DNA of 50,135 nucleotides from an uncultured bacterium (lineage in GTDB: Bacteria; Bacillota_I; Bacilli_A; RFN20; CAG-826): assembly GCA_949299335.1 (NCBI GenBank), contig CASGAD010000021.1:1-50135 (forward strand), given 5' to 3'. This document shows positions 30,962 to 34,780 of this stretch, piece by piece. A program made the position numbers and the translations under genes. Position 1 is the first letter of the stretch; the number at the start of each line of letters is the position of its first letter. Below the pieces are notes generated by a model. That model saw only the letters and a program-made list of their open reading frames with translations, was not told the DNA's origin and made no database searches.

Positions 30962-31167
30962 AAAAAACAAGTAAATTTTATATATAAATTTTCTTAAAAC
31001 ATATGATTAATCACTTATATTATGAATAAATATGCCTTACATAATATTTAATAAACAGGTATATCTTTAACTTTGATATGTACTTTTTTAAAGCAAAAAG
31101 AGAATTCGCTTTTTTAACTTAAGTCGATTTTATATACATTAATTTAAAAATGTTAGTAATTTAATAT
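30962..31167. other. Intergenic stretch with no recognised feature
   Basis: AT-rich sequence between the exporter promoter and the end of a pseudogene. I see no open frame with a start signal and no RNA gene. Confidence 0.4.
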
Positions 31168-31590
31168 TTACTCTTTAGCTTCTTCATAAGAGTAAAAAGA
31201 TTCAATTCCATCATCACTTGAAGAACCATTATATTTCCACCCAACATTAAACCTACTTAATTCTTTTAATGATGATATGCAAATTGGTATCTCATATTTA
31301 TAAATAGAAATAAAAATTTACAATTTATTTCACTTATAACACCTATATTATTTTTGTTTATAATTATTGCACCCTTATTAATTGGAATAATTTCATGATT
31401 TAAATAATAATGGTTTCTCATCGTTTCATAGTCTTCTAAACACGAATTTATAAAATATTAATCAAACTTTTGATTTGATATAATCATAACTTTTCTTACA
31501 TCGCCAACTTTTATAAGCGTAAAATATAATTTAACCTCTTCATGAGAAAATGGACTTTATTAATAAATTTCATCTTATAAAGCCTTTCAA
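31168..31590 (-). pseudogene. Remnant of a protein gene of unknown family
   Basis: Minus-strand frames give a protein-like string broken by one in-frame TAA and one frameshift: SHEEVKLYFTLIKVGDVRKV, then after the stop YFINSCLEDYETMRNHYYLN, then in another frame SLKELSRFNVGWKYNGSSSD and FYSYEEAKE before a TAA at 31170-31168. The pieces use ordinary codons and join in order, so this is a decayed gene of at least 135 codons. Further left-over pieces may reach about 31700, including the hairpin TTGGCA/TGCCAA at 31653-31670. No family recognised. Confidence 0.6.
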
Positions 31591-31765: not shown

Positions 31766-32812
31766 TTATTTTAATCTAACATATTTGTTGTTTTTTCCAT
31801 TACCTTCTCGTTTTATTTCACCAAGCTCAATTAGCTTTCTTAATGCTCCTTCTATAGAACTAACGCTGAGTGATGGACATAATTCTCGTATATCTTGTTT
31901 TGTAAACCATCCGATTTTATTCTTTACTGCTTTTCTTACCATATCAATAGCAGGTAGTTTTTCTTCAACGATTTTAAATCTATCTTCAAAATCTCTATAA
32001 GCAGCAAGTATTGTACTTAATAAGTACTTAATAAATGGAATAGGGTTATCATTTCCCTCAATCCACCCTTTCTGGGAAATACTTAGTGCATCATAATATA
32101 AATCCTTGTGTTTTGCTATCTTAGCTTCTAATGAAATGTATTTACCAACATAAAATCCATTTCTATATAATAAAAGTGTTGTTAACAATCTAGACATTCT
32201 ACCATTGCCATCATTAAATGGGTGAATGCAAAGAAAATCATGAATAAACACAGGTATAGCAATTAATGGTTCTAATTCATTATTTCCTATTACTCTATTG
32301 TATTCTTCACAAATTTTATCAAGTGCTGCTGGTGTTTCAAACGGATCAAGTGGCGTGAATAATACTTCAACTTTGCCATCAGAATATGTAGTAGATATAT
32401 AGTTTTGTACATTCTTGGTTCTTCCAGCCATAGGGTTATTCATATGACTATACATAATCTTATGAAGTTGTAATATAAAGTTTTGAGTTAATGGAATTGC
32501 ATCAAAATTTTCGTGAATTATATTTAATACATCACGATATCCGGCAATTTCTTCTTCGGCCCTATTTTTAGGAGTTGTTTTTTCTTTAACTAATTGTTTA
32601 ATTCTTGTATTTGTTGTAACTATACCTTCAATCGCATTTGAAGCTTCTGTGCTTTGAATCTTAGCTATTTCAACTAATTTCTCTAATTCTTCAGGTCTTT
32701 GTTTCAAGTACATTTCTTGCTTTCCAACTTCTTTATATATAGCTGCTATATAACCTAATATTTCTGAATCCCATGTTTTTTTACTTATTAAAGAATAATT
32801 GAAATCTCTCAT
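31766..32812 (-). CDS. Fic-domain protein (AMPylase-type), class II, with C-terminal winged helix
   Basis: 348 residues, apparently intact. The Fic core motif HPFNDGNGRMSR lies at 197-208 with catalytic His197, the phosphate-binding Asn/Gly loop and Arg205. An N-terminal inhibitory helix SNAIEG (58-63) matches the (S/T)xxxE(G/N) pattern of class II Fic proteins, whose Glu blocks ATP until released. The flap region is NYISTTYSDGKVEVLFTPLD. The C-terminal 60 residues form a winged helix (FTKQDIRELCPSLSVSSIEG). Fic enzymes transfer AMP to Tyr/Thr/Ser of targets; the target here is unknown, and bacterial class II members often modify themselves or nothing known. GAGGTGA precedes ATG. Confidence 0.92.
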   Translation of the reverse strand: MRDFNYSLISKKTWDSEILGYIAAIYKEVGKQEMYLKQRPEELEKLVEIAKIQSTEASNAIEGIVTTNTRIKQLVKEKTTPKNRAEEEIAGYRDVLNIIHENFDAIPLTQNFILQLHKIMYSHMNNPMAGRTKNVQNYISTTYSDGKVEVLFTPLDPFETPAALDKICEEYNRVIGNNELEPLIAIPVFIHDFLCIHPFNDGNGRMSRLLTTLLLYRNGFYVGKYISLEAKIAKHKDLYYDALSISQKGWIEGNDNPIPFIKYLLSTILAAYRDFEDRFKIVEEKLPAIDMVRKAVKNKIGWFTKQDIRELCPSLSVSSIEGALRKLIELGEIKREGNGKNNKYVRLK

Positions 32813-32956: not shown

Positions 32957-33290
32957 TTAAATATACTTTTTCATGATAGCAACGATTTTAGGTAAATCTA
33001 TTTTTACGGTGTCGTATATAACCTTAACATCAACCTTGCCATAATCATGAACTATTCGATTAAGCATACCTTTAATTGCGCTCCATGGTACTTCTTTATG
33101 CTTATTTTTAAAATTTTCAGTTAATTTTACAGAATTTTCAAACACTTGTATTATAAGAAACAGAATCTAGTAAAACTTCATCTTTTCCAAGTTCTTCATA
33201 TGTATTGACATTTTTTGTATGTTCAAGAACAAATTCAATGTCTCTTACAATCTTTTCAATATAGTATGTATTATTTTTAATATTATCCAT
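32957..33290 (-). pseudogene. HEPN-domain (DUF86/HepT-like) toxin, frameshifted
   Basis: The gene starts at ATG 33290-33288, overlapping the antitoxin stop by 8 nt as usual for MNT-HEPN pairs. The first 50 codons (MDNIKNNTYYIEKIVRDIEF... ...LLDSVSYNTSV) end in TGA at about 33141. The rest of the HEPN domain continues in another frame (VFENSVKLTENFKNKHKEVP, then GMLNRIVHDYGKVD) to a TAA at 32957. The domain order and ends match DUF86 (about 110 residues). In intact HEPN RNases the motif is R-x4-H, as in GMRNRIVHDY; here the Arg position holds Leu, so even without the frameshift the active site is lost. HepT-type toxins cleave RNA or are AMPylated by MntA. Confidence 0.85.
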
Positions 33291-33753
33291 ATATCTTTAT
33301 TCCATCTGATAAAATTTCATTTACGAGATCAAAGTTATCCTTAATCTGCTCTTGATTTAGTAAGTCTACTTTCTTTTTTAAATTTTCCCTAAGCTCCTCA
33401 ACTAATTCATAAAACTTTATTCCTGTAACTTCTGTGTAAACGAGTAAATCAACATCACTTGTCTCTTTTGCTTTTCCCTTTGCGTATGAACCAAACAAAT
33501 AGCAATAACGAACCTTATATTTTTTTAATATAGACTCACAAACGGACTTTATTCGCTCTATTTCTAATATTCCATGCGTTTCATCAACATAACCATATTG
33601 CCCCAACTTATTCACCATAAATTGATACTTCATATTATTTTTATTTACGTCATCTCGTTCATAGTTTTGATATGTACGTAATGGAATTCCTAAATATTTA
33701 GCACATTCAGCTTGTGTCATGTTATAGCTTTTTCTTAACTCTTTTAATTGCAT
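33283..33753 (-). CDS. XRE-HTH fused to MNT nucleotidyltransferase (MntA-like antitoxin)
   Basis: 156 residues. Residues 1-55 are an XRE helix-turn-helix (MTQAECAKYLGIPLRTYQNY). Residues about 65-155 are a minimal nucleotidyltransferase with the full GSYAKGKAKETSDVDLL signature (Gly88-Ser89, Asp100, Asp102), the metal- and ATP-binding core. MntA-type antitoxins AMPylate a Tyr of the HEPN partner to silence it; the partner gene follows directly with an 8-nt overlap but is broken. The HTH is expected to bind the palindromes just upstream. GAGG precedes ATG. Confidence 0.92.
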   Translation of the reverse strand: MQLKELRKSYNMTQAECAKYLGIPLRTYQNYERDDVNKNNMKYQFMVNKLGQYGYVDETHGILEIERIKSVCESILKKYKVRYCYLFGSYAKGKAKETSDVDLLVYTEVTGIKFYELVEELRENLKKKVDLLNQEQIKDNFDLVNEILSDGIKIYG

Positions 33754-33782
33754 AATTTTTCCTCAATTTTAATATAATCTTT

Positions 33783-33851
33783 ATTCTAGTTTACGCAAGT
33801 AAAATACGCAATTATTGCGTAAACTTTTAATAGTAAATACGCAATTATTGT
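33783..33851 (-). promoter_or_regulatory. Promoter and operator array of the HTH-MNT antitoxin
   Basis: On the minus strand TTGCGT (33811-33806) and TAGAAT (33788-33783) are 17 bp apart. A perfect palindrome TACGCAAT-T-ATTGCGTA lies at 33805-33821 across the -35. Two further TACGCAA half-sites are at 33792-33798 and 33839-33845; the last is part of a 15-bp direct repeat (AATACGCAATTATTG, also at 33803-33817). Binding of the antitoxin's HTH here would shut its own promoter. Confidence 0.75.
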
Positions 33852-34264
33852 ATTTTCAGTCCAAGGATCAACATATGAAAACTCGATTTTCACATTATCT
33901 AAAGCCATATTCCCAACATCATTAATTTTGCCGATTCTTTAATCGCCGTATAAGATGCAGATATACTAGAATTTATTTTAGAGCCACCATTAGAGCTAAT
34001 TTCTCCACCTATACTTGAACTAAAACTTATAGTCGCTTCTGGATTTCTTGCTTTTGGACCATAGTCTCTAGTAGCATAATAAGAACTATTATCCTTATAA
34101 TTATATGCAATACTGCTTTTACGTTATTATCAAATTCATAATTTTCTTTATTTGCAATTGAAACAATTTCAATTTTTTTGGCTCACTACTACTATCAAAA
34201 TTTGCAAATAAAGTCGCAAAGCCACTTATAGCTATTAAACTACTTAGAAATAATAGATTTATCT
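33852..34264 (-). pseudogene. Remnant of a secreted-protein gene
   Basis: The minus strand reads KKINLLFLSSLIAISGFATL followed by FANFDSSSEPKK, a typical signal peptide with no lipobox. It then continues in shifted frames: KIEIVSIANKENYEFDNNVK, YYATRDYGPKARNPEATISF, SSSIGGEISSNGGSKINSSI, and ALDNVKIEFSYVDPWTENT. At least three frameshifts separate these, and the start codon is gone (TAA stands just before the first Lys). The 5' end overlaps the stop of the regulator at 34259. The gene was probably an external Ser/Asn-rich protein controlled with that regulator. The left end dissolves into the antitoxin operator region. Confidence 0.72.
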
Positions 34265-34771
34265 TTTTTTATTTTCCCTTCTTTTAATTATTTTTATCAG
34301 TGATATTACTATTCCAATAACGCCTATAATGTTAAGTATTTGAAAAATTATCAATTCAGCATCACTGGAATAAAATGGTATATACCATGTATAAAAGCCT
34401 TCACCTAACGTTGGGTGAGATCTTTTATCGACTAATGACCGTATAAAGCATAGTAACAAGATTAAGGTCGAAATAATTAACAAAATATAGTATAAAATTA
34501 ATTTATTCTTTTCAGTCTCATTTAAAACTGTATCTTTATTTTCGTCATTTATAGCTTTTAATGGTGGTTCTAGCGCTTTACCATTTAGTAGATACTCATA
34601 GTCAACTTGAAAATAACAAGCAATACATTTAATTGTCTCAATATTTGGTTCGTTTATATTAGCTTCCCATTTTTGAACAGCTTGTCTAGATACATTTAAT
34701 TTATCTGCTAATTGCTCTTGAGACAAACCATGCTTTTTTCTCAGTTCTCTTATTCTTTCACCTAGAGTCAC
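34259..34771 (-). CDS. XRE-family regulator with C-terminal membrane helices
   Basis: About 170 residues. Residues 1-60 are a canonical Cro/C1 HTH (LGERIRELRKKHGLSQEQLA, VSRQAVQKWEANINEP) followed by a linker and two hydrophobic helices at about 90-112 and 143-163. This HTH-plus-membrane plan is common in Bacillota, where it usually controls the adjacent gene; here that is the secreted-protein remnant. The frame could open at GTG 34780, but that codon lies inside the GAGGAGG ribosome binding site; GTG 34771, 8 nt past it, is the better start. CGTAGC occurs twice upstream (34832-34837 and 34853-34858) and may be part of an operator. Confidence 0.85.
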   Translation of the reverse strand: MTLGERIRELRKKHGLSQEQLADKLNVSRQAVQKWEANINEPNIETIKCIACYFQVDYEYLLNGKALEPPLKAINDENKDTVLNETEKNKLILYYILLIISTLILLLCFIRSLVDKRSHPTLGEGFYTWYIPFYSSDAELIIFQILNIIGVIGIVISLIKIIKRRENKKR

Positions 34772-34780
34772 ATCAATCAC

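Follow-up and report, generated by a model that had tools for sequence, protein, structure and literature searches.

The locus described here is, in all likelihood, a mobile type VII HepT/MntA toxin–antitoxin module with an HTH-fused antitoxin that is in recent decay, the toxin being the first component to go. It lies on contig C21 of genome G000 (1.42 Mb, 37 contigs), a stretch of 50,135 nucleotides referred to below as the window. Several direct observations carry this reading: two lesions in the HEPN gene, an intact MNT gene, a graded set of relatives, a family-wide loss that runs in one direction only, and low dN/dS values for both genes.

In its whole state, the antitoxin of such a module would repress the operon through its HTH at TTGCGTA sites, while MntA would adenylylate the HEPN RNase at the tyrosine of its RX4HXY motif and thereby block the enzyme. 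Precedents for both activities come from Shewanella oneidensis (S. oneidensis), where MntA adenylylates the RX4HXY tyrosine and blocks the RNase (PMC7641770), and where the antitoxin acts as an autorepressor by binding to its promoter (PMC4621449). In the window the toxin would have been lost through a frameshift together with the replacement of its catalytic arginine by leucine. The antitoxin would now be superfluous, with too little time elapsed as yet for its decay, and we infer that it is drifting at present. Because the loss of an antitoxin in the presence of an active toxin harms the cell, toxin-first is the sole tolerated order of events. The pattern 'toxin lost, antitoxin kept' is forced by survival in any toxin–antitoxin pair and, taken alone, is uninformative about a new use of the antitoxin; a second antitoxin use is not needed to explain the window locus.

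An intact antitoxin gene overlapping a broken toxin gene

The preliminary description had recognised an HTH-MNT gene with a complete GS-x10-D-x-D core, and the gene is indeed a single open frame with the core GSYAKGKAKETSDVD (Table 1). An HTH_3 domain at residues 3-36 scores above the Pfam cut-off, and residues 72-155 match both Polbeta (61.3 bits, cut-off 26.9) and NTP_transf_2 (50 bits, cut-off 21); the third aspartate is likewise retained, in KKKVDLL. The NCBIfam MntA model yields a score of 54.4, slightly below its cut-off of 60, and the best PDB match is 5yep, the structure of S. oneidensis MntA (E 2.8e-4). By its GSX10DXD core and its matches to nucleotidyltransferase models, the protein is a type VII MntA in sequence.

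Table 1. Features of the toxin–antitoxin locus (positions in the window)
Feature	Position	Strand	Remarks
HEPN (HepT), C-terminal piece	32957..33145	-	different frame from N-terminal piece; Leu at the catalytic Arg position
HEPN (HepT), N-terminal piece	33138..33290	-	50 codons, TGA end after frameshift; start overlaps MNT stop
HTH-MNT antitoxin gene (MntA-type adenylyltransferase, N-terminal Xre-like HTH)	33283..33753	-	156 aa, uninterrupted
GS-x10-D-x-D nucleotidyltransferase core codons, intact	33448..33492	-	residues 88-102
TACGCAAT / ATTGCGTA repeat array, operator-like, upstream of MNT	33788..33850	.	half-sites common to G013, G061 and G078

The HEPN start sits within the MNT stop (ATGGATAA), the C-terminal piece matches the Pfam HepT-like model with 48.5 bits (cut-off 23.5), and the gene as a whole is about 66% identical to the intact HepT of G061, features that mark it as a descendant of the HepT family. 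What it lacks, compared with a functional HepT, is a single open frame next to MNT and a full RX4HXY motif. Both defects, read from one assembly, had been proposed in the preliminary description, and an alignment of the HEPN frames with HepT homologues bears them out. The frameshift suspected near 33145 separates two pieces in different frames, between which the window is 5 nt shorter than intact G061 (counted by hand from the DNA), with the net loss placed near 33145-33155. The arginine of RX4HXY is replaced by leucine (GMLNRIVHDY; codon 33062-33064) while the histidine and the tyrosine are retained, and this arginine is present in all 72 intact homologous HepTs that were collected. Since mutating either the arginine or the histidine abolished the toxicity of S. 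oneidensis HepT (PMC4621449), the remnant in the window is very probably inactive. A search of the G000 genome for another HEPN partner found no match to PF05168 or PF08780, and PF01934 returned the broken window HEPN alone. A reading of TGA as tryptophan was considered as the cause of the broken frame and rejected: TGA ends 3 of the 42 predicted genes of the window, in which the genetic code is standard and TGA serves as stop, and the C-terminal piece lies in another frame anyway.

Upstream of the MNT gene, TACGCAAT/ATTGCGTA half-sites occur in four genomes (G000, G013, G061 and G078), and the array is probably the operator for the HTH of the MNT protein. The good promoter that had been ascribed to this gene did not hold up, as a sigma-70 scan of the upstream region gave no strong match and found fewer sites than in shuffled sequences, not above chance.

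The surroundings of the module offer some further observations. Directly downstream of the broken HEPN gene, at 31766-32812 on the minus strand, lies an intact SoFic-like Fic gene with the motif HPFNDGNGR and an inhibitory-helix-like SNAIEG; like HEPN, it is missing from the otherwise aligned G013 contig. A remnant at 31157-31535 can be aligned at 70% to DNA that follows the antitoxin gene in G013; it overlaps the end of a membrane-protein-like ORF of 146 aa, which is whole in G013 and reduced to a short ORF in the window. The stretch 33850-34260, which separates the module from the HTH gene that follows (34259-34780), contains almost no ORF of at least 40 aa and may be a decayed gene.

Related loci and the order of loss

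A single locus alone means little. Its relatives form a comparative series of type VII decay, from both genes whole, through a broken toxin, to a missing toxin beside an antitoxin with a mutated core and to both genes broken; they are different genomes and represent possible stages, not one lineage over time. The preliminary description had advised a look at other strains for an intact toxin; among the relatives, a complete pair is found in G061, a member of another genus, in which both genes are whole (MNT 79% and HEPN 66% identical); its module occupies a genomic site different from that in the window, and the module has therefore probably moved. The locus of G013, the nearest toxin-less relative, from the same genus and with an MNT 86% identical, aligns with the window across MNT and the upstream region, and again, further downstream, with 31157-31535; between these flanks the HEPN and Fic segment is gone and other sequence is in place. 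The G013 MNT is open, yet its second catalytic aspartate has changed to asparagine (DxD to DxN). The G078 MNT is a pseudogene interrupted by three stops, its DxD now reading DxG, and no match to HEPN was found beside it. G005 has a frameshifted MNT, a HEPN cut to its first half and an adjoining transposase-like ORF; its HEPN had been considered as an intact comparison and was dropped, both G005 genes being broken. Equal degradation of the antitoxin in relatives had been named beforehand as an outcome that would speak against the preliminary description, and these three genomes go part of the way towards it, with a mutated core in G013, a mutated core and lost frame in G078, and a lost frame in G005.

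To place these cases in a wider frame, homologous MNT loci were surveyed in 224 genomes of the family, together with 18 from GTDB contigs, and the downstream HEPN was scored by HMM, 'absent' denoting no HMM match within 800 bp. Among the full-length MNTs, 72 accompany an intact HEPN, 15 a broken one and 39 none (six more are without a HEPN call), leaving 54 of 126 without an intact HEPN; these counts depend on the HMM thresholds and the 800-bp reach, and loci scored as absent could in some cases hold an unrecognised different partner. Scored on the HMM alignment, the GSX10DXD core is lost in 10 of the 54 MNTs without an intact toxin and kept in 44, versus no loss in the 72 paired MNTs (Fisher p ~1e-4, genomes within one family being non-independent samples). 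When six distant proteins are omitted, loss is seen in 4 of 48 toxin-less MNTs (p 0.02). Toxin-less tips are widely spread on the MNT tree and only weakly clustered, with 29 changes for 'absent' against 34 in shuffled data and 15 against 14.5 for 'broken', and several MNTs without a toxin share 96-97% identity with paired sisters.

A survey that starts from MNT could miss toxins lacking an antitoxin, hence a second, toxin-first search was carried out, from which 20 loci were sampled among the hits without a listed MNT (about 14 further such hits, some at contig ends, lie outside the sample). MNT sequence was found upstream in all 20, with an intact core in 19; at the remaining locus, G064, the toxin is cut short too. 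Taking the 72 pairs and the 19 toxin-first loci together, the count of intact HEPNs whose MNT core is not intact is 0 of 91. The count shows that the toxin goes first, and together with the comparative series it provides a useful null model before new functions are claimed for orphan antitoxins. As a separate observation, contig C33 of G023 (locus L003) carries tandem HTH-MNT copies at 742-1206 and 299-589, one whole and the other a pseudogene, with no HEPN nearby.

Timing of the loss and alternative readings

Rates were estimated by NG86. In the comparison of G000 with G061, dN is 0.176 and dS 1.30 for the HEPN pieces (dN/dS ~0.13), and dN is 0.129 and dS ~1.17 for the MNT genes, with the caveat that NG86 becomes unreliable once dS approaches or exceeds 1 and that YN00 and maximum-likelihood dS are saturated for several pairs. 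At 1.36, the resulting HEPN/MNT dN ratio is rather high but does not exceed what intact pairs show (maximum 1.68, mean 1.08 and sd 0.17 across 48 non-independent pairs). The low HEPN dN/dS and a dN ratio within the intact-pair range indicate that HEPN was constrained for most of the separation, and support a recent loss of the toxin. The preliminary description had left two alternatives standing, a recent decay and an antitoxin that had gained another use; the HEPN values favour the former, and the relatives, with their degraded antitoxins, lend no support to the latter.

The MNT genes of G000 and G013 yield a dN/dS of ~0.085, which is not proof of present constraint because much of the divergence may predate the losses. 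Few amino-acid changes (seven) fall on the G000 branch of MNT; together with the low dN/dS they leave room for an ongoing constraint on the antitoxin, and the 44 toxin-less antitoxins that keep their core leave room for some of them being useful. Only one full-length orphan pair shares a junction, L038 and L040 from Lachnospiraceae (dN 0.014, dS 0.010); here the toxin loss clearly predates the divergence and the handful of changes carries no purifying signal.

It is unlikely that the HTH-MntA antitoxins of this Bacilli family, repeatedly toxin-less with an intact core, include some, that of the window among them, which are kept as an immunity against circulating related HepT modules. For the window locus itself, a role of this kind, in which the antitoxin persists by neutralising the HepT toxins of incoming related modules, appears distinctly unlikely. 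Such anti-addiction is an established idea (PMC2654758); it would fit the intact core in the window and in most toxin-less antitoxins of the survey, as well as related intact modules that are common in the family and found at differing sites across genomes. However, the sister G013 lost a catalytic aspartate following toxin loss, the antitoxins of G078 and G005 are broken, and core loss is commoner in toxin-less antitoxins than in paired ones. The scatter of toxin-less status over the MNT tree points in the same direction. Neither plasmids (where no match covered 80% of the query) nor viral contigs yielded a close relative, and the one good 'phage' record holds an intact pair but resembles a bacterial contig.

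Retention as a transcription regulator, with the HTH still working on its own operator or elsewhere, is very improbable. The operator-like palindromes conserved in four genomes agree with it, but an intact module would have operators too and these would linger after a recent loss. Such a fate may exist in the genus, as G002, G007 and G022 have a toxin-less, dead-core HTH protein by an nrdD-like gene; the window protein, however, retains its catalytic core, is located elsewhere, and has no neighbour known as a conserved target. An assembly artefact, in which a sequencing error would have broken the frame of a functional pair, is scarcely credible, even for a single assembly, given that the 5-nt difference falls outside any long homopolymer and that the change of arginine to leucine is a separate substitution at an otherwise invariant residue.

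Comparison with known systems

The closest known counterpart of the module is the type VII pair SO_3166/SO_3165 of S. oneidensis (PMC4621449, PMC7641770), with which it shares overlapping gene ends, a GSX10DXD antitoxin and a HepT-like toxin with the histidine and tyrosine of RX4HXY; unlike that pair, the window antitoxin has an N-terminal HTH, and the toxin is frameshifted and devoid of the catalytic arginine. The decay of the E. coli chromosomal ccdO157 is cited as a degenerative process (PMC2654758), and the window locus resembles it as a chromosomal toxin–antitoxin module degenerating within a lineage, while differing in the toxin family and in being compared between species rather than strains. 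In Klebsiella pneumoniae orphan antitoxins are abundant, and degraded pairs have been proposed as one source of them (PMC7192599). The window likewise holds an antitoxin gene without a functional toxin; the families differ, and the Klebsiella study was set within one species complex. Chromosomal toxin–antitoxin decay (PMC2654758) and orphan antitoxins (PMC7192599) have already been described, and the pair in the window is judged to be an ordinary decaying locus.

The related HTH protein of the same genus mentioned above is an observation in its own right. It is encoded at 1471-1971 of L009 (G022), 1474-1977 of L010 (G002) and 1462-2001 of L011 (G007), and its nucleotidyltransferase core is dead (GD..., DxD missing). 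In all three loci the gene order is conserved, divergent from an anaerobic ribonucleotide-reductase-like gene and with no HEPN, and the closest pair has a dN/dS of ~0.24; the protein looks like an antitoxin turned regulator.
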